Of a stretch of 26,346 bases of DNA, positions 1-26,346 are shown piece by piece (positions within the stretch are counted from its first letter, which is position 1; every line of letters begins with the position of its first letter). The DNA comes from a virus. Below the pieces are notes generated by a model. It saw only the letters and a list, made by a program, of their open reading frames with translations. It ran no database searches and was not told the origin of the DNA. Location: the IMG/VR virus record IMGVR_UViG_3300010430_006946, positions 1-26,346 of that record; one strand, 5' to 3'. A program made the translations under genes and the position numbers.

Positions 1-126
1 ATCGGGCTCGGCTTCTCTGGTTACACGCTGATCGAGCTGGCCGGCCAACAGATCGAAACATTCTTCAAGCGCCTGTTCGCCGTCGCGACCGGCGCTCTCG
101 ATAAGCTTGGTGGGAAGAGCAAATGA
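1..126 (+). CDS. C-terminal end of an unknown phage protein (partial)
   Basis: An open frame enters from the left edge and ends with TGA at 124-126, giving the last 41 residues. It contains a short hydrophobic stretch (residues 1-13) and ends Lys/Gly-rich. The stop overlaps the ATG of the next gene (ATGA at 123-126), so it belongs to the same translationally coupled operon. In Mu-like phages the lysis genes often precede the DUF2730 gene, so a lysis or holin-type protein is possible, but the fragment is too short to assign. Confidence 0.6.
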   Translation: MGLGFSGYTLIELAGQQIETFFKRLFAVATGALDKLGGKSK

Positions 127-470
127 GTAACTGGGTAGAGATGGCAACCATCGCGTTCATCGTGATTGGCATTTTCACCGCGATCTGGAGAGGCGGCGCG
201 GCCAATCCTGAAGGTACGCGGACATTGAGCAAGGGGCTTGGTCAGCTATCTGGCCGCGTCGGAGAGCTCGATCAACGCGTCGGCCACGTTGAGGAAGAGC
301 TTGACCAGCTGCAGGCAACGGCGGCGACCGGCAAGGACATCCAGCGACTTGAAGAGCGCATAGCCACTGTGCGCGCGGAAATGCAGGGCCACAGCGAGCT
401 CGCCAAGCGCACGCATGCCAGCGTCAAACGCATTGAAGATCACCTCATCGATAAAGGTTTTGGCCGATGA
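123..470 (+). CDS. DUF2730 family protein (Mu gp25-like)
   Basis: The protein has 115 residues. One N-terminal membrane segment (about residues 7-24, IAFIVIGIFTAIW) is followed by a long charged coiled-coil region (about 38-110) rich in Glu, Gln, Leu and Arg. This is the DUF2730/Mu gp25 arrangement, and the position directly before gp26- and gp27-like genes agrees. Members are small membrane-anchored phage proteins of uncertain role near the lysis/packaging boundary. Its start overlaps the upstream stop by 4 nt, and its stop overlaps the next ATG by 4 nt. The family call rests on architecture and synteny more than on a single motif. Confidence 0.8.
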   Translation: MSNWVEMATIAFIVIGIFTAIWRGGAANPEGTRTLSKGLGQLSGRVGELDQRVGHVEEELDQLQATAATGKDIQRLEERIATVRAEMQGHSELAKRTHASVKRIEDHLIDKGFGR

Positions 471-781
471 ACAGCTATGCCCAGCGCTGCGAACAGGATG
501 CGCGCCTTGCTATCCTGGCAGAGCTTGCCGAGCAGCGCGACGCGATGCTCAATGTCCTGTCAATCACGCGCGTGATGGATGCGATCGGCATGCGCCGGTC
601 GCGCGAATGGGTGGAAACCCAGCTGGAGAAGCTGGAAGAGCTTGGCGCTGTCAGGCTGAGCCATTCCGAAGTGTCGGGCCTTGGTGATGTCACCGTTGCC
701 ACGCTGACGCGCGCCGGGCGCGATCATGTTGAGCGGCGCAGTTTGATCCGCGGCGTCAGCTCGCCCGCGGACGCGGTTTGA
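467..781 (+). CDS. Winged-helix-like phage protein (Mu gp26 / VpaChn25_0724 type)
   Basis: The protein has 104 residues. Helical segments (about 8-30, 33-60) are followed by a short beta-like region containing the pattern VTVATLTRAGRDH (about 76-88), typical of a winged-helix fold ending in an 'L T xx G' wing. Small proteins of this type sit at the gp26 position in Mu-like phages and are often labelled VpaChn25_0724 family or ArsR-like. Their role is not established; a packaging or DNA-binding role is plausible because the next gene is the small terminase. The start is coupled to the DUF2730 stop through ATGA. Confidence 0.75.
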   Translation: MNSYAQRCEQDARLAILAELAEQRDAMLNVLSITRVMDAIGMRRSREWVETQLEKLEELGAVRLSHSEVSGLGDVTVATLTRAGRDHVERRSLIRGVSSPADAV

Positions 782-785
782 TCGC

Positions 786-1403
786 GTGGCCCAGGCAATC
801 GATCCGGTTCAGGGCGGCCCCGGCCGCCGCAAGGGTTTTGGCCATATCTCATCGATAGATCGCCTGCCAGAACAGTGCGACGAGGATATCGAGTGGGCCA
901 ATACCGAACTGCGCGAACGCCGCATGCCGCAAACGGTCATCCTTGAACAGTTCAACGCGCGGCTTGCCGATAAGGGCATCAAGGGCATCTCCAAGAGCGC
1001 TTTCAGCCGCCATTCGGTGCGGCTGGCGATGGAGATCCGCAAGATGGAAGCGAGCCGCCGCATTTCCGATGAAATCCTGCAGCGCCTTGCCCCTGGAGAA
1101 CGCAGCGAAGGCACGATCGCGGCGACCGAGCTGCTCAAGCACCGCATTCTGGAAATGGTGCTTTCTCAGGATGAGCCTGATCTGGGCCTGCTGGAAAAGG
1201 CATCGCTTACCATCAAGCGGCTGAGCAGCACGGCCATTCAGGAAGCCGAGGAACTGCGCGGCGATGAACAGCGCCGCCGTGATGAAGAACAACGCAAGGC
1301 CAACGAAGAGACCGCTGCCAAAGTCGCCTTTATCGCCACGGAGGCTGGCCTTGGAGAAGATCGCATTGCCGCGATCCGCAAGGGTGTTTTGGGACTTAAC
1401 TAG
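786..1403 (+). CDS. Small terminase subunit, DUF3486 family (Mu gp27-like)
   Basis: The protein has 205 residues with a GTG start 4 nt after the upstream stop. The N-terminal part has the DUF3486 signature: a GRRKGFGHISSIDRLPE stretch (about residues 13-29), then a helical DNA-binding region with an F-N-x-R-L pattern and ISKSAFSRHS (about 64-73), which resembles a recognition helix. The C-terminal half is a long helical, Glu/Arg-rich region. In Mu, gp27 is the small terminase partner of gp28, which recognises phage DNA for headful packaging. The large subunit lies about 1 kb downstream, separated by three accessory genes. Confidence 0.88.
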   Translation: MAQAIDPVQGGPGRRKGFGHISSIDRLPEQCDEDIEWANTELRERRMPQTVILEQFNARLADKGIKGISKSAFSRHSVRLAMEIRKMEASRRISDEILQRLAPGERSEGTIAATELLKHRILEMVLSQDEPDLGLLEKASLTIKRLSSTAIQEAEELRGDEQRRRDEEQRKANEETAAKVAFIATEAGLGEDRIAAIRKGVLGLN

Positions 1404-1418
1404 ACAAGGACAACGCCA

Positions 1419-1946
1419 ATGAACCGCGAAATCCACACCATTTCTGGCTTTGCGCTCGATCGTGAAGGGCAGCCAGCGCCAACGCTTTCCGTTCAGATCG
1501 GTTCGCTTGCCGGGTTCAGTAAGGATGACGGAAGCTGGTCGCGCCGTGTTTACGCCGGTGATGTTACACTGGAACTGAGGGGCGGCGGGCTTCCGGGACC
1601 GGTTACAGTTTCGGTTGCCGTCAATCGGGATATCCGTCTGGACGTGATCGGCGGAGACACCCTTCTAACCGACGCGTCGATCACGGCTGTCGGGCCGTTC
1701 GAGCGGGTTGAGCGCATAGGGGCTGCTGACGAAGAGCCGGAAGCCCCGCCGCAACAGCCGGACGGCCCATCGACCCGCCCGGAGTTCAATCCCAGCGGCA
1801 ATCCAGCGGTTGCCCGACTGAAAGTGAAAACCGAAGAGCTGCTCGGCGATATCATGGTGCTGCTGCCTGAAAGCCGCGAGCGCGCGATCGCGATTGCCAA
1901 TATTGAGCAAGGCTGCATGTGGGCCGTCAAGGCTGCGACAAAATGA
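1419..1946 (+). CDS. Ig-like domain protein with C-terminal Acb2/Tad1-type hairpin domain (candidate cyclic-nucleotide sponge)
   Basis: The protein has 175 residues, with AAGGA at 1406-1410 placed 8 nt before the ATG. Residues about 5-90 look like a beta-sandwich of the carboxypeptidase-regulatory/Ig type (SGFALDREGQPAPT at the front, alternating hydrophobic strands). A Pro/Glu linker follows (about 103-121). Residues 123-175 match the Acb2/Tad1 hairpin family: an FNPSGNP lead-in, a Lys-containing helix (K135, K137), then an S-R-E-R-A-I-A-I helix ending in MWAVKAAT. Known members bind cyclic di- and trinucleotides (anti-CBASS) or cyclic ADP-ribose isomers (anti-Thoeris). Ligand binding here is inferred. 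It is placed between the two terminase subunits, a typical slot for accessory genes. The fused beta domain is unusual compared with the roughly 90-residue stand-alone sponges. Confidence 0.75.
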   Translation: MNREIHTISGFALDREGQPAPTLSVQIGSLAGFSKDDGSWSRRVYAGDVTLELRGGGLPGPVTVSVAVNRDIRLDVIGGDTLLTDASITAVGPFERVERIGAADEEPEAPPQQPDGPSTRPEFNPSGNPAVARLKVKTEELLGDIMVLLPESRERAIAIANIEQGCMWAVKAATK

Positions 1947-2170
1947 TGAGCGTTGCTGACTATGTGCTGGCGGTCCTTGGCGCGCTGGTCTGCCTTGTCT
2001 GGTGCGGCGGATCGTTCCTGATCGCGGCGATAGACGCTTTCGCGCCATGCCCGAATGAGGCGACCGCAAAGACCGGACGCAAAGGCTGTGCCTCGCTGAT
2101 CGTTGCCCTGCTGGCGCTGGTCTATTTCGGCGGCGTGCTGCTGAACGGCACATGGAGCTGGTTGGGGTGA
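1943..2170 (+). CDS. Small two-helix membrane protein
   Basis: The protein has 75 residues starting at ATG 1943, which overlaps the previous stop as ATGA; ATG 1946 is an alternative. An upstream in-frame ATG at 1919 exists but lies deep inside the preceding gene. Two hydrophobic segments are visible: about residues 6-28 (ADYVLAVLGALVCLVWCGGS) and about 53-70 (ASLIVALLALVYFGG), separated by a Cys-containing polar loop. This is a plausible inner-membrane protein. Two-helix membrane proteins in phages can be holins, spanins or superinfection-exclusion proteins, but nothing in the sequence selects among these. Its stop is coupled to the next GTG. Confidence 0.65.
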   Translation: MMSVADYVLAVLGALVCLVWCGGSFLIAAIDAFAPCPNEATAKTGRKGCASLIVALLALVYFGGVLLNGTWSWLG

Positions 2171-2451
2171 GCAAGCGTTCCCGCCTTTATAGCCAACTTC
2201 CCGAGCGGCCCGTGGGCGTGCGGCGAAGCTGGCGCAAGCTGTCGCCTGACCTTGCTGAGATCGGCGAACGCCTGCGCACCTGCTCTGTCTTGGTGAAACC
2301 CGAATGGGGCAATCCGGTCGAAGCGTATGAGTATCGGGAGCGCAAAGGTGCCCTGCGACGAATTGAGGCGCGCTATGATGGCGAACGACGCATCTCGATC
2401 AGTTTCCGTCGCGATGGCACGCGGATCGAACGAACGTGCCTCTATGTCTGA
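2167..2451 (+). CDS. Hypothetical basic phage protein
   Basis: The protein has 94 residues from GTG 2167, which overlaps the upstream stop as GTGA; ATG 2152 would add five residues. It is rich in Arg (for example RPVGVRRSWRKL near the N-terminus) and ends in an alternating beta-like stretch (IEARYDGERRISISFRRDG). No family is recognised. It lies in the accessory slot between the small and large terminase genes and overlaps the probable terminase start by 8 nt. It could bind nucleic acid because of its charge, but this is only a guess. Confidence 0.55.
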   Translation: MSKRSRLYSQLPERPVGVRRSWRKLSPDLAEIGERLRTCSVLVKPEWGNPVEAYEYRERKGALRRIEARYDGERRISISFRRDGTRIERTCLYV

Positions 2452-4132
2452 ACCCGCCATCTCGATCGACACCGCTGGCGAGCAGCCCGTCATCCCGCGG
2501 GAGCCAGAGCAGCTTCCGCCCGAGCTGACACGCGGCGCGGAAATCCCGGACGATCTCGATCCGCTGGCTGACGGTATTCTGATGCAACATCAGAAGGACT
2601 GGCTCGAAGACGACAGTGACCTGAAGCTTGGCGAGAAAGGGCGGCGCACAGGCCTCACTTTTGCCGAAGCGCTTGACGATTCACTTTCTGCCGCCGCTTC
2701 GCGATCAGCGGGCGGCGATAACGTGTTTTATATCGGCGACACGAAGGACAAGGGACGCGAATTCATCGGGTATGTCGCGCACTTTCTGAAGATTGTTGCA
2801 GGCGAACTCGTAGAGATCGAGGAATTCGTCTTCATGGATCAGCGCGAGGATGGCTCCACGCGCGGCATATCGGCCTTCCGTGTGCGCTGCGCCAGCGGCT
2901 TCAGGGTTGAGGCGCTGTCTTCCCGGCCAGAGAACATTCGCGGGTTGCAAGGCATTGTCGTCATCGACGAAGCGGCCTTTCACAAGGACGTAAGAGCCGT
3001 CTTAGACGCGGTGAATGCGCTTCTTATCTGGGGCGGAAAAGTGCGCGTGATTTCTACGCACAACGGCACGCTCAATCCGTTCAACGAGCTGGTGCGTGAG
3101 GCACGCGCTGGCAAAGTGCCATTCTCGGTCCACAGGATCCCGTTCCAGGCAGCTATCGATAACGGCCTTTACAAACGCGTCTGTCTGATGCGCGGGCTGG
3201 AATGGTCGCCTGAAGCCGAAGCCGCATGGGAAGCAAAGATACGCGCCGCATACGGTTCGCGCACGGCCCAGATGGAGCAAGAGCTTGATGCCATCCCCGC
3301 CGATGGTGAAGGCGCGGCGCTAGCCCGTGTTGTCATCGAACAGGTGACAAGCCGCGACGTGCCAGTGATCCGGCTGTCGCTGCCCGACAGTTTCAAGGCC
3401 GCCGAAAAAAGCGCGCGCAAGAAGCAAATCGAGGACTGGTGCCGCACCGAGCTGCGCCCGCACCTTGATCGCCTCGATCCCAAGCGCCGCCACGATTTCG
3501 GATTTGACTTTGGACGCAGCGGCGATGCGTCCGACATGATTATTCAGGAGCTGGGACAAGACCTGATCCGGCGCTGGAAGTTCGTTGTTGAACTGCGCAA
3601 TGTCCCGTTCGAAGCCCAGCGCGATATCATGTTCTACATTGGCGAGGCTTTGCCCCGGCTTGGGCATGGCGCGCTCGATGCCACGGGCAATGGCGCCTAT
3701 CTGGCCGAAGTCGCCGCGCAGAAATGGGGCGACCGGATATCGGAGATCAAGCTGTCCCAGCAATGGTACCGCGAAAACGGCACGCCCTATATCGAGGCGT
3801 TCGGAGACCGCACTGTTGTCATCGCAGCCGATGAAGATGTCGTGCGCGATCATCAGGCGCTGCAATATGTGAAGGGCGTCGTCATGGTGCCTTCGGACAT
3901 GCGCTATAAAGGCGAAGACGGGCTGGATCGCCACGGCGATACCGGCATCGCCGGAATGCTCGCCTGGTTCGCATCGCGGCAAGGCGCGGTGCTTTACGAA
4001 TATGCGCCGGTCACCACGCGCGAAGCCAACGGCTTTGACGATCCCGATCACGATGATTTCAGTCGCGATGGCTTTGGCGGCCTTGGCCGATCGCCGCTGG
4101 GCGCGGGGATAAGGAGCGGCGGCACATGGTGA
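2444..4132 (+). CDS. Terminase large subunit (Mu gp28-like)
   Basis: The protein has 562 residues from ATG 2444, chosen because it overlaps the previous gene by only 8 nt; the frame stays open upstream to 2327 and ATG 2375 or 2414 are possible. It is the ATPase and nuclease of the packaging motor. Visible motifs are a deviant Walker A (EKGRRTG, about 64-70), Walker B (IVVIDEAAF, about 171-179), a coupling motif (STHNG, about 204-208), and the start of the RNase-H-like nuclease domain with acidic residues D351 and D355 (HDFGFDFGRS). Length agrees with Mu gp28-type terminases. The stop overlaps the next start. It acts with the DUF3486 protein and docks on the DUF935 portal. Confidence 0.92.
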   Translation: MSEPAISIDTAGEQPVIPREPEQLPPELTRGAEIPDDLDPLADGILMQHQKDWLEDDSDLKLGEKGRRTGLTFAEALDDSLSAAASRSAGGDNVFYIGDTKDKGREFIGYVAHFLKIVAGELVEIEEFVFMDQREDGSTRGISAFRVRCASGFRVEALSSRPENIRGLQGIVVIDEAAFHKDVRAVLDAVNALLIWGGKVRVISTHNGTLNPFNELVREARAGKVPFSVHRIPFQAAIDNGLYKRVCLMRGLEWSPEAEAAWEAKIRAAYGSRTAQMEQELDAIPADGEGAALARVVIEQVTSRDVPVIRLSLPDSFKAAEKSARKKQIEDWCRTELRPHLDRLDPKRRHDFGFDFGRSGDASDMIIQELGQDLIRRWKFVVELRNVPFEAQRDIMFYIGEALPRLGHGALDATGNGAYLAEVAAQKWGDRISEIKLSQQWYRENGTPYIEAFGDRTVVIAADEDVVRDHQALQYVKGVVMVPSDMRYKGEDGLDRHGDTGIAGMLAWFASRQGAVLYEYAPVTTREANGFDDPDHDDFSRDGFGGLGRSPLGAGIRSGGTW

Positions 4133-4341
4133 CCGACGACATGAAAGCCGCAGGCTGGATGGAACATGACGGCAGCCATTGCCCGATGCCAAACCGCGGC
4201 GCTGTCGAAGTGCTGCTTCGCAATGGCCGCATCTCGATGAGCCGGTTCGGTTTCTGGTTCTGGCCTTGGTGGAGCGAGACGAACATCGATATCGTTGGCT
4301 ACCGCCCCGATGAACCGGATGAGGAAAGGCTGGCCGCATGA
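4126..4341 (+). CDS. Small hypothetical phage protein (Trp-rich)
   Basis: The protein has 71 residues. ATG 4126 overlaps the terminase stop by 7 nt, and GTG 4129 is an alternative with a 4-nt overlap. It has a DGSHCPMP pattern (about 15-22), an alternating beta-like stretch (AVEVLLRNGRI) and an aromatic segment FWFWPWW (about 43-49), then DIVGYRPDE. Small single-domain proteins with a 'cP.P....v.v..r.G....' pattern followed by 'di.aYR' are common in phages and have no known function. Its stop is coupled to the next gene by ATGA (4338-4341). Confidence 0.65.
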   Translation: MVTDDMKAAGWMEHDGSHCPMPNRGAVEVLLRNGRISMSRFGFWFWPWWSETNIDIVGYRPDEPDEERLAA

Positions 4342-4703
4342 TCGCGCAAGGCTATCCCACACTGGAAATGATCAATGAGGCTGATCGAAAGGCCGCCGTC
4401 TGGTTTCTGATGGCCAAAGGCAGATTCGGCAAGCAACTGATAGGCGATGTGCTGTCCGGCAAACTGGATGACCGTCTGGATCTGCTGAGGCATCTTGCCC
4501 GGTTTCGGTTGGCGTTGCGGCGCAAGGTTCTTTCTGGCCTGCCGCTTTCGTGCCGGGACGCCTTTGAGGCGGCCGCGCAGTATTGCGCTTCGCTTGGTCT
4601 GTGCGCGGAGGCTGCCGCGCTGCGCTCTGGAAGCGGCCTTGATCGTCCGGAAGTCGCAGTGTTCGAAAAGCACCTGCGCAATTACGAAAGGATCTGTGCA
4701 TGA
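4338..4703 (+). CDS. Hypothetical helical phage protein
   Basis: The protein has 121 residues and is predicted to be mostly helical, with many Leu and Ala residues and three Cys (two in the C-x5-C arrangement CASLGLC, about 83-89, plus one near the C-terminus). No family is recognised. It starts with ATGA coupling to the preceding small gene and ends with ATGA coupling to the portal gene (4700-4703), so it is expressed with the packaging and portal proteins. This position next to the portal makes a small head-assembly or accessory role possible but unproven. Confidence 0.6.
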   Translation: MIAQGYPTLEMINEADRKAAVWFLMAKGRFGKQLIGDVLSGKLDDRLDLLRHLARFRLALRRKVLSGLPLSCRDAFEAAAQYCASLGLCAEAAALRSGSGLDRPEVAVFEKHLRNYERICA

Positions 4704-6262
4704 ACGCTCTCGTCGATCAATGGGGGCAGCCGCTTCGCAAGCAGGTGCTCACTCGCGAAGTGGCCGGGCCAACGCTGGCAGGCGTGCGATCGCCCATATC
4801 CGGCTATCCCGCCGATGGCCTGACGCCGGTTCGTCTGGCAGAGCTTCTGCGCGAAGCCGATCAGGGAGAGCCGCTGCGCTTCTTTGAACTGGCCGAGCTG
4901 ATCGAGGAACGCGATCTGCACTATGTCGGCGTGCTGGCCACCCGCAAGCGCAGCGTCTCGCAGCTGCAGGTCACCGTCGAAGCCGCGTCCGATGATGGTG
5001 CCGATGTTGAAAAGGCCGATATGGTGCGCGACTGGCTCAAGCGGGACGAGCTGGCCGACGAAACGTTCGATATTCTCGATGCGGTCGGCAAAGGCGTGAG
5101 CTTTACCGAAATCATCTGGGACAGTTCCGAAGGGCAATGGATGCCCGATCGGCTGGAATGGCGCGATCCGCGGTGGTTCACCTTCGATCGCAAGGATCTG
5201 CGCACGCCGCTGCTGCGCGGCGGGGAAAGCGGCAACGATCAGCCATCGCCGCTGCCCGCGTTCAAGTTCATCCATGCCAACATAAAGGCAAAGTCCGGCC
5301 TGCCGATCCGATCCGGCCTTGCGCGCATCGCTGCCTGGGCATGGATGTTCAAGGCCTTTACCCAGCGCGACTGGGCCATCTTCTGTCAGACCTATGGTCA
5401 GCCGGTGCGCATCGGCAAGTTCCACGAAGGCGCGACAAAGGAGGATAAACAGACGCTGTTTCGCGCGGTCGCCAATATCGCCGGGGATTGCGCCGCGATC
5501 ATCCCGCAGTCGATGGAAATTGAATTTGTCGAGGCGGACAACCTTGGCGCTGGGTCTGATCTTTATGAGAAACGCTCCGACTGGCTTGATCGCCAGATGT
5601 CCAAGGCCGTGCTTGGCCAGACGACAACGACCGATGCGGTATCGGGCGGCCACGCGGTATCGAAAGAGCATCGCAAGGTTCAGGAAGATATCGAGACAGC
5701 CGATTGCCGCGCGCTGGCCGCCACGCTTAATCGCGATCTCATCCGCCCGTGGATCGATCTGGAATACGGGCCGCAGAAGGCCTATCCGCGCGTCGTCATC
5801 GCCCGCCCGGATGAGGAAGATCTCGCCCAGATGTCGGAAAGCCTCAGCAAGCTGGTGCCGCTGGGCCTGCGCGTGAAGCAATCCGAAGTGCGTGACAAGT
5901 TCGGCCTGTCCGATCCCGATGATGAAGACGATGTGCTGCGCCCGGCCACAGCGCCAGTCGCTCCCGGCACTGCCCCGCCTGAAACGGCATTGCAGGCACA
6001 GGAAGCGCCCGCCGCGCCGCATCCCGCGGCGCAGATCGCCGATGCGATGGCAGGCCAGGGCGATGCTGCGGTTGCGGATATGATCGAACAGATTGAAGCG
6101 ATGCTGAACAGCGCCAGCGACCTGAACGAATTTCGCGCCATGCTCGATGCTGCCTATCCCGGTATCGATGCCAGCGATCTGGCCAGCGTTCTGGCAGGCG
6201 GCATGACTGCCGCCCATGCGGCCGGGCGCAGCGATCTGGAAGATGAGAGCGAGGGCGCGTGA
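4700..6262 (+). CDS. Portal protein, DUF935 family (Mu gp29-like)
   Basis: The protein has 520 residues, the usual length for DUF935 portals. Family-like stretches include the N-terminal ISGYPADGLTPVRLAELL region (about 33-50), the FFELAELIEERDLHYVGVLATRKRSV region (about 62-86) and the WRDPRWFTFD region (about 153-162). The C-terminal third is acidic and Ala/Pro-rich. Portals form the dodecameric ring at the capsid vertex through which DNA is packaged and ejected. It is coupled upstream by ATGA and downstream by TGATG. A long antisense open frame inside this gene is a by-product of codon bias. Confidence 0.92.
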   Translation: MNALVDQWGQPLRKQVLTREVAGPTLAGVRSPISGYPADGLTPVRLAELLREADQGEPLRFFELAELIEERDLHYVGVLATRKRSVSQLQVTVEAASDDGADVEKADMVRDWLKRDELADETFDILDAVGKGVSFTEIIWDSSEGQWMPDRLEWRDPRWFTFDRKDLRTPLLRGGESGNDQPSPLPAFKFIHANIKAKSGLPIRSGLARIAAWAWMFKAFTQRDWAIFCQTYGQPVRIGKFHEGATKEDKQTLFRAVANIAGDCAAIIPQSMEIEFVEADNLGAGSDLYEKRSDWLDRQMSKAVLGQTTTTDAVSGGHAVSKEHRKVQEDIETADCRALAATLNRDLIRPWIDLEYGPQKAYPRVVIARPDEEDLAQMSESLSKLVPLGLRVKQSEVRDKFGLSDPDDEDDVLRPATAPVAPGTAPPETALQAQEAPAAPHPAAQIADAMAGQGDAAVADMIEQIEAMLNSASDLNEFRAMLDAAYPGIDASDLASVLAGGMTAAHAAGRSDLEDESEGA

Positions 6263-6465
6263 TGGCTACCGCCGATCTGTTTGAACGGCCGCCCCGCCGC
6301 CCGGCACGCAAACTTATGAAGCTGTGCGATGCTGGTTCGTTTCCTGATGGCAGGAAGGCCATCCATTTCGTGTGCGCGCGCTGCGGCCATGATGATGGCT
6401 GGTCCTATCAGACCGAAACGAATAGCCAGGCAAAGGTTGGCCGCCCATGCCCGAAATGCAACTGA
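6262..6465 (+). CDS. Small zinc-ribbon protein
   Basis: The protein has 67 residues from ATG 6262, whose A is also the last base of the portal stop (TGATG); GTG 6259 would add one residue. It carries a two-knuckle zinc ribbon: CARC at about 34-37 and CPKC at the extreme C-terminus (about 63-66), separated by a Trp/Tyr-containing strand. Such mini zinc-ribbon proteins are frequent between portal and minor head genes in phages and have no fixed function. They may bind nucleic acid or a protein partner. The stop is again TGATG-coupled to the next small frame. Confidence 0.7.
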   Translation: MATADLFERPPRRPARKLMKLCDAGSFPDGRKAIHFVCARCGHDDGWSYQTETNSQAKVGRPCPKCN

Positions 6466-23654: not shown

Positions 23655-24628
23655 GGAGACAGTCCTTGTGGCTTTATATTCCAACGTTGATGGCGGCGAA
23701 TTGCGCGGCCTCTCACTATGCTCCGGATATGGAGGACTCGAACTCGGCATCAGTATCGCCGAGCCCGGATATCGAACTGTTTGTTTCGTCGAGCGGGAAG
23801 CCCATGCGGCGGCGGCTCTCGTGGCCCGGATGGAAGACAAAGCGCTGGAGCAAGCGCCTGTCTGGGACGATCTTAAATCCTTCGACGGCCACGCGTGGCG
23901 TGACCGCGTTCATATCCTCACTGCCGGTTATCCGTGCCAGCCATTCAGCATGGCAGGGAAGCGATGCGGGAAAAACGATCCCCGACACCTTTGGCCTGAA
24001 GTCGAGCGCATCATCGGTGAAGTGCGGCCAACTGCCGTCTTCGCAGAGAATGTCGAAGGGCACATCGATCTGGGATTTGCCGAAGTCGCAGCGAGCCTTC
24101 AGAAGCTGGGCTATTACACAAAAGCGGGACTGTTCACGGCGCGAGAAGTGGGCGCAAGCCACCGGCGTCGCCGCCTCTTCCTCCTGGCCTACGCCGACGG
24201 CGAGCGATGCGGGCTATATGCCGGATCTGATACTGGAGGGCGGTTCGATCACGATCAAGTCACCGTTCTACACGGCGGAGACGAGCTCGGGCCAGTTCTC
24301 GCTGACAAATGCAGCGCGGGCATGGTCGAGCATGTGGATGGCGATGAGGGCGCTTGGTTGGCGTCCGATCGCGAAGAGCTGGCCGAATGCGAAGCAATCT
24401 TCGCACCAGGTCCGGGTGAGCTTCAGGACTGGCACCGGCTCTTACATCGGCGGCCTGATCTCCAACCCGCGATTTTTCGAACACGTGATGGGCTGGCCGA
24501 TCGGGTGGAGCGCACCAGAGGAGCCGGTAACGGAGTATGCAGCCTGGCTGCGGCGTTCGCGTATCGAACTCTCAAGGCTGACTTCGTTGGCGATGCTGCG
24601 GGATCGGGAGTTAACCAATGACGCTTGA
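23582..24628 (+). CDS. Overlapping frame: WPTP...MGWPIGW-type phage protein (candidate overprinted gene)
   Basis: This frame, +1 relative to the C5-methyltransferase, is open for up to 348 residues across the entire methyltransferase gene. The start is uncertain: GTG 23582, ATG 23591, ATG 23690 and ATG 23804 are possible. Residues 199-210 (SSSWPTPTASDA) and 288-310 (containing SNPRFFEHVMGWPIGWS), plus SWPGWKTKRWSKRLSGT (80-96), match a family of phage proteins of unknown function encoded beside or on top of C5-methyltransferase genes. Codon use from about 24184 to 24560 looks normal for this genome in this frame (many G/C third bases), while the methyltransferase frame also keeps its motifs. 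It ends 7 nt beyond the methyltransferase stop, inside the adenine methyltransferase start. Expression is unproven. Confidence 0.55.
   Translation: MSSMPPDQPIEAFEPFSERQERRLRRQSLWLYIPTLMAANCAASHYAPDMEDSNSASVSPSPDIELFVSSSGKPMRRRLSWPGWKTKRWSKRLSGTILNPSTATRGVTAFISSLPVIRASHSAWQGSDAGKTIPDTFGLKSSASSVKCGQLPSSQRMSKGTSIWDLPKSQRAFRSWAITQKRDCSRREKWAQATGVAASSSWPTPTASDAGYMPDLILEGGSITIKSPFYTAETSSGQFSLTNAARAWSSMWMAMRALGWRPIAKSWPNAKQSSHQVRVSFRTGTGSYIGGLISNPRFFEHVMGWPIGWSAPEEPVTEYAAWLRRSRIELSRLTSLAMLRDRELTNDA
23668..24621 (+). CDS. DNA (cytosine-5) methyltransferase
   Basis: The protein has 317 residues from GTG 23668, with GAGGAG at 23653-23658. C5-methyltransferase motifs are in order: motif I GLSLCSGYGGLELG (14-27), motif IV GYPCQPFSMAG (87-97) with catalytic C90, motif VI ENVEG (127-131), motif VIII GASHRRRRLFLLAYAD (162-177) and a C-terminal motif IX/X region DGLADRVERTRGAGNGVCSLAAAFAY (274-299). 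It transfers a methyl group from SAM to cytosine C5. The target sequence cannot be read off. No restriction partner is near, so it is an orphan phage enzyme, probably for protection against host restriction. Its whole length is overlapped by a second protein-like frame. The stop is ATGA-coupled to the adenine methyltransferase. Confidence 0.92.
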   Translation: MALYSNVDGGELRGLSLCSGYGGLELGISIAEPGYRTVCFVEREAHAAAALVARMEDKALEQAPVWDDLKSFDGHAWRDRVHILTAGYPCQPFSMAGKRCGKNDPRHLWPEVERIIGEVRPTAVFAENVEGHIDLGFAEVAASLQKLGYYTKAGLFTAREVGASHRRRRLFLLAYADGERCGLYAGSDTGGRFDHDQVTVLHGGDELGPVLADKCSAGMVEHVDGDEGAWLASDREELAECEAIFAPGPGELQDWHRLLHRRPDLQPAIFRTRDGLADRVERTRGAGNGVCSLAAAFAYRTLKADFVGDAAGSGVNQ

Positions 24629-25403
24629 GCCTGTCCAGCCGGTTAGGCCGGTCGCGCCATACCTTGGCGGCAAGCGCGCGCTCGCCAAGCGTCTTGTCCC
24701 GATGATCGATGATATTCCGCACGATCTCTATGCGGAGCCATTCGTTGGCATGGGCGGCGTCTTCTTTCGCCGGACGCGGCGGCCGAGGAAGGAAGTGATC
24801 AACGATATCTCGACCGATGTCGTGAATCTCTTCCGGTTGTTGCAACGCCATTATCAGCAGCTGCTCGACGTGCTGAAGTGGCAGGTCTGCAGCCGGGCTG
24901 AGTTTGAGCGTCTGGTCTCGCTCGATCCCGACAGACTGACCGATCTGGAGCGGGCCGCCCGGTTCCTCTATCTGCAGCGCGCGGGCTTTGGTGGCATGGC
25001 CCGCAATTATGGTGTGGCCAGAACCAACCCGGCGCGCTTCGATCTGACAAAGCTGGTGCCGATGCTTGAGGATGTTCATCAGCGCCTTTGCGGCGTCGAC
25101 ATCGAGCGGCTGCCCTATGCTGAGCTGATTGGCCGCTATGACACGCCTGGCACGCTGTTCTATCTCGACCCGCCATACTTCGGTTGTGAAGATGACTATG
25201 GCCCAGGCATCTTCTCAACGGCTGATTTCGAGGTTCTGAGAGGCCTCTTAGAAGGGCTCAAGGGCCGCTTCATCCTGTCGCTGAACGACAGACCTGAAGT
25301 CCGGGAGTTGTTCGCCGGGTTCAAGATCGAGGAGGCCAAGCTCAACTATCGAGTCAGCGGAAAGGTGACACCAGCCCGCGAGGTGATTATCACAGGGCCA
25401 TGA
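24618..25403 (+). CDS. DNA adenine methyltransferase, D12 class (Dam-like)
   Basis: The protein has 261 residues, a typical D12-class N6-adenine methyltransferase length. Motif X-like PYLGGK (14-19) is followed by motif I EPFVGMGG (40-47) for SAM binding, and by motif IV DPPY (184-187) within YLDPPYFG, the catalytic motif. The helical insert between them (about 70-165) is the usual target-recognition part. The enzyme methylates adenine N6 in duplex DNA; GATC is a common target of the class but is not proven here. It is translationally coupled to the preceding C5 enzyme (ATGA) and to the following gene (ATGA), so both base modifications are produced from one mRNA. Confidence 0.92.
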   Translation: MTLEPVQPVRPVAPYLGGKRALAKRLVPMIDDIPHDLYAEPFVGMGGVFFRRTRRPRKEVINDISTDVVNLFRLLQRHYQQLLDVLKWQVCSRAEFERLVSLDPDRLTDLERAARFLYLQRAGFGGMARNYGVARTNPARFDLTKLVPMLEDVHQRLCGVDIERLPYAELIGRYDTPGTLFYLDPPYFGCEDDYGPGIFSTADFEVLRGLLEGLKGRFILSLNDRPEVRELFAGFKIEEAKLNYRVSGKVTPAREVIITGP

Positions 25404-25789
25404 GCATTTACGACCAATCAAAATGGCCGAACCCTGAAGCCAACCCTCTCGTGATCATGCTGGAACGTGGTGACCAATGGTTCAGCAACACTGAGATCAA
25501 CACCGCCCTCGATCCGGAGCGCAGGAACAAGAATCGTTCCGTCATAGCGAACTGGCCTACGCTGGCTGAACAATTGAGAGACGGGGATACGATGATCGAA
25601 GGCCGCACTTTCCGGGAACCAACGAATGACCGGCAGGGCCGGACTGGAGGCGTCTCAAGATACTTCAGCCAGCGCGCGCTGATTCTGATCATAATGCGCG
25701 CTCAGACAATCAACGCCGCAGCATGCCGAGATTGGATAGCCACTGCTATGGCAGATACCCTTTCCGCCCACGAGTTTGCTGCTCAATAA
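25400..25789 (+). CDS. Unknown right-end protein (129 residues)
   Basis: The protein has 129 residues and is coupled to the adenine methyltransferase by ATGA. It has a Trp-rich N-terminal half (KWPNPEANPLVIMLERGDQWFS) and a C-terminal stretch GGVSRYFSQRALILIIMRAQTINAAACRDWIATAMA (about 83-118). This has weak resemblance to the 'Y.s..glY.Li.rs..p.A..f..Wv' end of BRO-N/antirepressor proteins. That resemblance is only suggestive. It is slightly less GC-rich than its neighbours. As the last gene before the phage right end it could be a regulator, an anti-restriction partner or a moron. Confidence 0.6.
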   Translation: MSIYDQSKWPNPEANPLVIMLERGDQWFSNTEINTALDPERRNKNRSVIANWPTLAEQLRDGDTMIEGRTFREPTNDRQGRTGGVSRYFSQRALILIIMRAQTINAAACRDWIATAMADTLSAHEFAAQ

Positions 25790-25801
25790 GGCAGTTTTAG
25801 T

Positions 25802-25851
25802 GCTCCAGAACCTCTTGTCAGAAATGGCTAATCGCTCCAGAACCTCTTGTC
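25802..25851 (+). repeat. Two perfect 18-bp direct repeats, candidate transposase-binding sites at the right phage end
   Basis: The sequence GCTCCAGAACCTCTTGTC occurs at 25802-25819 and again at 25834-25851, 32 bp apart start to start (about three helical turns). They lie after the last phage gene and before the host DUF3297 gene. Mu-type transposases bind tandem sites of about 20 bp beside each end, and the phage DNA ends in CA. The nearest following CA is at 25858-25859; another candidate is at 25867-25868. The role is inferred because the left end is not available. Confidence 0.5.
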
Positions 25852-25868
25852 CGGCTACAGCGGTTCCA

Positions 25869-25942
25869 GCCCGACTCCCCCGCCCAACCACCCGATATCC
25901 TTCAGGTAACCTTTATCGGGTGGTTGGGCGGGGGAGACGGGC
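25869..25942. repeat. Long perfect inverted repeat (29-bp arms with one mismatch)
   Basis: The arms 25875-25897 and 25914-25936 are perfectly complementary over 23 bp around a 16-nt loop (25898-25913). After a single A/A mismatch they continue 5 bp further as GCCCG (25869-25873) and CGGGC (25938-25942). No T-run follows on either strand, so it is not a classical intrinsic terminator. It may be a host REP-like palindrome, a Rho-independent-like barrier at the 3' end of the DUF3297 gene, or part of the phage end. Confidence 0.8.
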
Positions 25943-25981
25943 CGGTGCCGAAAGCGCATCACGAACGTGATACGCGCACCG
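25943..25981. terminator. Second hairpin beside the host gene 3' end (possible terminator)
   Basis: CGGTGC (25943-25948) pairs with GCACCG (25976-25981), enclosing GCG/CGC and the perfect inner arms ATCACG/CGTGAT (25958-25971). It directly adjoins the long inverted repeat and lies 47 nt beyond the 3' end of the minus-strand DUF3297 gene. It lacks a U tract. A transcription end or mRNA-stabilising structure for DUF3297 is the simplest reading. Confidence 0.4.
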
Positions 25982-26028
25982 AATAAGGACTCAGGCCAGC
26001 GCTGTTCCAGCCGACAGGCGAAGAAAGA

Positions 26029-26346
26029 TCACGCCTTGGCGACGGGCGGGTGGTCTCCCAGATCTTCGTACCAGGCTTCGACAGGTCCGTTCAGCTTGAT
26101 TGTCAGCGGCTGCCCGTTGCGGTCCAGCGATTTTCCAGCCTGCACGCGCACCCAGCCTTCGGAAATGCAGTATTCCTCAACATTGGTGCGCACCGACCCC
26201 TTGAACCGGATGCCGACACCGCGGCCCAGCTTGTCGCCATCGAAATGCGGACTGCGCGGATTGATCGCAAGCCGGTCAGGCGGAAGATCGGCGCCCGCTG
26301 CGCCTGCCGTGTTGCCGTTTTCGGCTGGTGTGTTTTCATCGGTCAT
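26029..26346 (-). CDS. DUF3297 family protein (host gene)
   Basis: The protein has 105 residues, with its ATG exactly at the window edge (26344-26346, minus strand). An N-terminal Ala/Asn-rich tail precedes the DUF3297 core: LPPDRLAINPRSPHFDGDKLGRGVGIRFKG (about 21-50), then RTNVEEYCISEGWVRVQAGKSLDRNGQPLTIKLNG (about 53-87). This small conserved protein of unknown function is common in alphaproteobacterial and other proteobacterial chromosomes. It is opposite in direction to all phage genes and marks host DNA to the right of the prophage. Confidence 0.9.
   Translation of the reverse strand: MTDENTPAENGNTAGAAGADLPPDRLAINPRSPHFDGDKLGRGVGIRFKGSVRTNVEEYCISEGWVRVQAGKSLDRNGQPLTIKLNGPVEAWYEDLGDHPPVAKA

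Follow-up and report, generated by a model that had tools for sequence, protein, structure and literature searches.

Acb2 (T4 Vs.4), an anti-CBASS sponge of cyclic oligonucleotides, and Tad1 (SBSphiJ7, cbTad1), a sponge of gcADPR and cyclic nucleotides, share a homologous helical hairpin, and both form hexamers through it, with cyclic oligonucleotides bound at the interfaces. Most sponge proteins consist of one small fold; to our knowledge, the example in which a beta domain is combined with the hairpin is Tad1. In the 26,346-nt stretch of viral DNA analysed here (IMG/VR record IMGVR_UViG_3300010430_006946; hereafter the window) we found a gene whose product, like Tad1, has a beta domain followed by the hairpin; unlike in Tad1, the beta domain is unrelated to that of Tad1 by sequence and is joined to the hairpin by a flexible Pro/Glu linker. 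What is new is this combination of domains, which is known from one sequence. The gene and its neighbours are:

1419-1946, + strand: fusion ORF with an ATG start, 175 aa, intact 528-nt frame
1419-1721, + strand: N-terminal beta-rich domain (residues 1-101), kin of a domain that secreted Sphingomonadales proteins carry between their CAP part and their RTX part
1722-1784, + strand: Pro/Glu-rich linker (about residues 102-122), from the sequence and from a model without regular secondary structure here
1785-1943, + strand: Acb2/Tad1-type helical hairpin (residues 123-175), from PF24729, the family profile searched against PDB, and AlphaFold2
786-1403, + strand: TerS (Mu gp27-like), which bounds the slot upstream (PF11985, 100 bits; phrog_426, terminase small subunit)
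1943-2170, + strand: small hydrophobic ORF of two-segment membrane type, from the sequence
2161-2451, + strand: 96-aa ORF; similar-looking small ORFs, judged by eye, lie in the TerS-TerL slot of relatives L063-L065
about 2444-4132, + strand: TerL, downstream border of the slot, by identity to RS1 and vB_ThpS-P1 proteins

A sequence-only reading had assigned the last 53 residues (F123-K175) to the Acb2/Tad1 hairpin, fused through a Pro/Glu linker to an N-terminal part, and both points held up. The single ORF carries the linker at approximately residues 103-121, and PF24729, the Acb2/Tad1 hairpin family, covers residues 126-174 (E=6.9e-11) with 42.6 bits against a curated cutoff of 27 bits, placing the protein in this superfamily by profile score. 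There was also a match to phrog_1454 (9.6e-7), while NCBIfam and PADLOC left the fusion protein unmatched. A profile built from 43 sequences of the hairpin family and searched against PDB recovered Acb2 homolog 43 (9ptq, 1.2e-5), Tad1 (0.0013, with several Tad1 structures among the matches) and T4 Vs.4/Acb2 (0.0095); the top line of this search, a designed TIM barrel, was set aside as a repeat artefact, no single stretch of it passing. Aligned with hhalign to Tad1, the match (E 3e-5) was confined to the hairpin part. Structure prediction, which had been suggested as a check, returned a confident two-helix hairpin: AlphaFold2 placed helices at residues 129-148 and 153-174 (pLDDT ~95 in the full protein, and a mean of 93 when the hairpin was predicted by itself), and the two long antiparallel helices that characterize PF24729 are present in the predicted model. 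Foldseek searches with the full model and with the hairpin alone gave nothing significant, a two-helix query not being specific; with the hairpin, Tad1 7uaw ranked second (E 3.6).

The N-terminal part had been likened to the Ig-type beta-sandwiches of virion proteins. Its beta-rich character stood, albeit from a weak model in which AlphaFold2 drew strands at low confidence (pLDDT ~50-66 over most of the domain and lower at the N terminus), but the resemblance to virion Ig domains did not: no Pfam family, Ig families included, matched above its cutoff (CarboxypepD_reg, PF13620, scored 16.1 bits, E=0.015, short of its cutoff of 32.3), and among viral contigs and phage records, virion proteins included, we found no relative. 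Neither did PDB hold a significant relative, nor was one found on plasmids. Relatives were instead found in Sphingomonadaceae, where the N-terminal 101 residues were 34-37% identical to a protein domain (L222/L246), with E-values per genome of 5e-11, 1.9e-6 and 4.3e-6, and further relatives were seen in L224, L225, L248 and L249. In the L222 protein the domain lies downstream of a Pfam CAP domain and upstream of RTX repeats, and the same order was judged by eye in L224, L225, L248 and L249. Such relatives are rare (3/251 Sphingomonadaceae and 4/401 Sphingomonadales genomes sampled). The phage domain thus resembles that of these Sphingomonadales CAP-RTX proteins (~30-37% identity for those aligned), although the latter carry CAP and RTX parts and no hairpin, and the phage copy lacks their D-D-D-YSxGEG loop. 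From these matches we infer that the beta domain was captured from a host-order protein. The proposal of a sponge on a virion scaffold, delivered with the particle, is left unsupported because we found no virion relative of the domain, its relatives being in secreted proteins; and since inspection by eye showed no clear signal peptide in the fusion protein, it is probably cytosolic.

The hairpin itself falls with a standalone subfamily of PF24729 that has the pattern FNPSG...MWAVKA and members of ~60-85 aa, to which it is up to ~57% identical over the hairpin, but from which it differs in that all members examined are standalone. A search seeded with the first two hairpin sequences gathered 55 viral loci, and all 55 held standalone hairpin genes, mostly of ~60-85 aa. 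No other fused hairpin was present among these 55 loci, 160 portal-relative loci, 401 Sphingomonadaceae genomes and 385 class-level genomes, which yielded standalone hairpins or one real Tad1; since these searches were sampled or seed-based, rarer fusions may exist. Long frames in L234, L242 and L244 were considered as further fusions and looked like chance or unrelated frames. The Tad1, apparently a genuine homologue, occupies frame 1060-1662 of L245, an alphaproteobacterial genome.

We compared the hairpin with T4 Acb2 (GYKPHTEEKIGKVNAIK...TIAKTKLKEASMWACRAVFQ), whose K23 corresponds to K26 of Pseudomonas Acb2. The two share the hairpin and the MWA helix and apparently an aromatic-plus-Lys pair; the fusion protein departs from Acb2 in its N-terminal 101-aa addition and at two ligand-contact positions. 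F123 aligns with Y8 (FNP/YKP), and K135 with K23 after a 3-residue gap, which puts the aromatic and the Lys three positions closer together than Y8 and K23. The equivalents of T68 and F82 are not kept, the aligned residues being A160 and T174. One study of T4 Acb2 (PMC12657218) reports disrupted binding in Y8A and stacking of F82 against the ligand; another (PMC12657230) describes reduced Acb2 binding in T68M. All 42 aligned relatives have Thr at position 160, where the fusion protein alone has Ala, and all 42 have Ala at position 165, where it alone has Gly; at position 174, 34/43 rows have Phe and eight have Thr, the fusion protein among them. F123, K135, R153, E163 and W168 are kept in the fusion protein. 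With F123 and K135 aligned but A160, T174 and G165 changed, the binding surface is partly kept and partly altered, and the protein may bind ligand differently or no longer at all. Because of A160 and T174 dinucleotide binding would be expected to be weaker or altered, with trinucleotide-type binding at the trimer interface the likelier of the two.

Judged by its sequence, the window is a Mu-like transposable siphophage or prophage of a sphingomonad-type bacterium; it carries the head and tail genes of such a phage, and its closest portal relatives are in Sphingomonadaceae prophages (74% identity, L059), followed by Rhodobacterales phages, e.g., RS1 and vB_ThpS-P1. The fusion gene does lie, as had been noted, in an accessory slot between the terminase genes, being the first of three small ORFs between TerS and TerL, the latter sharing 38% identity with the protein encoded at the equivalent place in Rhodovulum RS1 and 29% with the annotated large terminase of vB_ThpS-P1. 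Its stop overlaps the start of the translationally coupled 1943-2170 ORF (ATGA), for which Pfam and PHROG profile searches gave no convincing family match, and a ribosome-binding-like AAGGA precedes its ATG. Since its GC and codon-position GC are also close to those of its neighbours, the fusion ORF reads as an ordinary gene. A promoter and terminator scan of 700-2600 found nothing above chance, and an Rfam scan of 1-5000 found no match.

In relatives the TerS-TerL slot ranges from empty to ~1.3 kb of unrelated small ORFs, and as it is so variable, and empty in many relatives, we regard the fusion gene as accessory. Two related phages (L094 and L218) have a canonical Acb2-type gene in this slot (PF24729 54.9 bits for L094), and at least seven relatives (L063, L070, L085, L100, L126, L176 and L186) have hairpin genes elsewhere in the late region; in the transposable phage RcapMu a hairpin gene whose annotation notes resemblance to a cyclic-nucleotide binding domain lies just downstream of the major capsid gene. 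In three unrelated phages a Tad2-like gene (PF11195, 83-99 bits) comes immediately after a hairpin gene of the subfamily, the pairs being at:

L001, 5213-5637: hairpin gene and Tad2-like gene
L038, 3960-4384: hairpin gene and Tad2-like gene
L041, about 5995-6424: hairpin gene and Tad2-like gene

The pair amounts to a compact putative two-sponge cassette, which in L001, and apparently also in L038, lies between the two terminase genes. A Tad2 profile made from these three, narrower than that of Pfam, found none in 1.79 Mb of portal-relative loci. The Acb2-type genes in the same slot and the Tad2 neighbours favour a counter-defence role. Other occupants of the slot in related phages were DUF6527 proteins (L003:4048-4341 and L190:3557-3856) and a GapR-like DNA-binding protein (L202:1767-2021; PF10073, 110 bits) with look-alikes in several other relatives.

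The best-supported reading, which we hold to be somewhat better than an even bet, is that the phage makes the fusion protein as a sponge that takes up cyclic-nucleotide immune signals in the cytosol. By extension from Acb2 and Tad1, its C-terminal hairpins would assemble into a hexamer whose interfaces would hold cyclic oligonucleotides away from CBASS-type effectors, and the beta domain, kin of host-order secreted proteins and added by fusion, would lie at the periphery of the assembly, where it could alter stability or add a binding surface. Counting for this are the PF24729 score, the PDB profile matches and the confident hairpin model, the setting among Acb2-type and Tad2 genes, and the alignment of F123 with Y8 and of K135 with K23; counting against it are A160, T174 and the shortened F123-K135 spacing, the placement of the hairpin subfamily in late structural regions, the occurrence of the fusion in one sequence only, and the lack of a significant Foldseek match. 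Alternatively, the hairpin may be kept solely for oligomerisation, ligand binding having been lost, and the protein would present the beta domain or bring several copies of it together, perhaps within the virion or on its surface. The changes at ligand positions 160 and 174 together with G165 would suit this, as would the location among late structural genes and a kind of beta domain that also occurs in extracellular proteins, but the failure to find any virion relative of that domain, the accessory nature of the slot and the retention of F123, K135, R153, E163 and W168 make it improbable in our judgement. Somewhat less probable again is a decaying or chance fusion, in which a sponge gene joined to a captured host fragment would be losing its function: a single occurrence with changes at the otherwise invariant positions 160 and 165 is what such a fusion might look like, yet the 528-nt frame is intact, codon-position GC follows the neighbours, and the gene has both AAGGA ahead of its ATG and a coupled downstream start.

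The order of domains, beta part then hairpin, is that of Tad1, and the sequence-only reading had named anti-Thoeris activity beside anti-CBASS activity. It seems to us very unlikely that the protein is a sponge of the Tad1 kind whose beta domain would capture gcADPR as well, as hhalign of the N-terminal domain against four Tad1 sequences gave a probability of 0.1% (E 0.71), the conserved FQxGPxxE motif that should precede the hairpin is absent, the two domains are set apart by a long linker, and there is no C-terminal tail like that of Tad1; with an N-terminal domain that is not Tad1's, the anti-Thoeris part of the claim is unsupported. A bolder form of the sponge reading, that a hairpin sponge re-created the Tad1 architecture independently by capturing a beta domain akin to secreted proteins of the host's order, and so gained a new pocket that sequesters immune signals of a new class, we regard as a long shot. 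If the hairpin were confirmed to carry another beta domain, unrelated to that of Tad1, it would prove to be an assembly core that can be reused for new sponges, and the fusion would offer a testable way to new ligands. The late-region hairpin family, standalone, widespread and beside Tad2 in several phages, offers a set of candidate anti-defence genes.

At the right end of the window, GCTCCAGAACCTCTTGTC occurs in two copies within 25789-26028 and is followed by a bacterial-looking DUF3297 gene on the minus strand (26029-26346); together the repeats and this gene probably mark the right end of the transposable prophage. Genes for cytosine and D12 adenine DNA methyltransferases also lie at this end (23668-25403) and possibly protect against host restriction.
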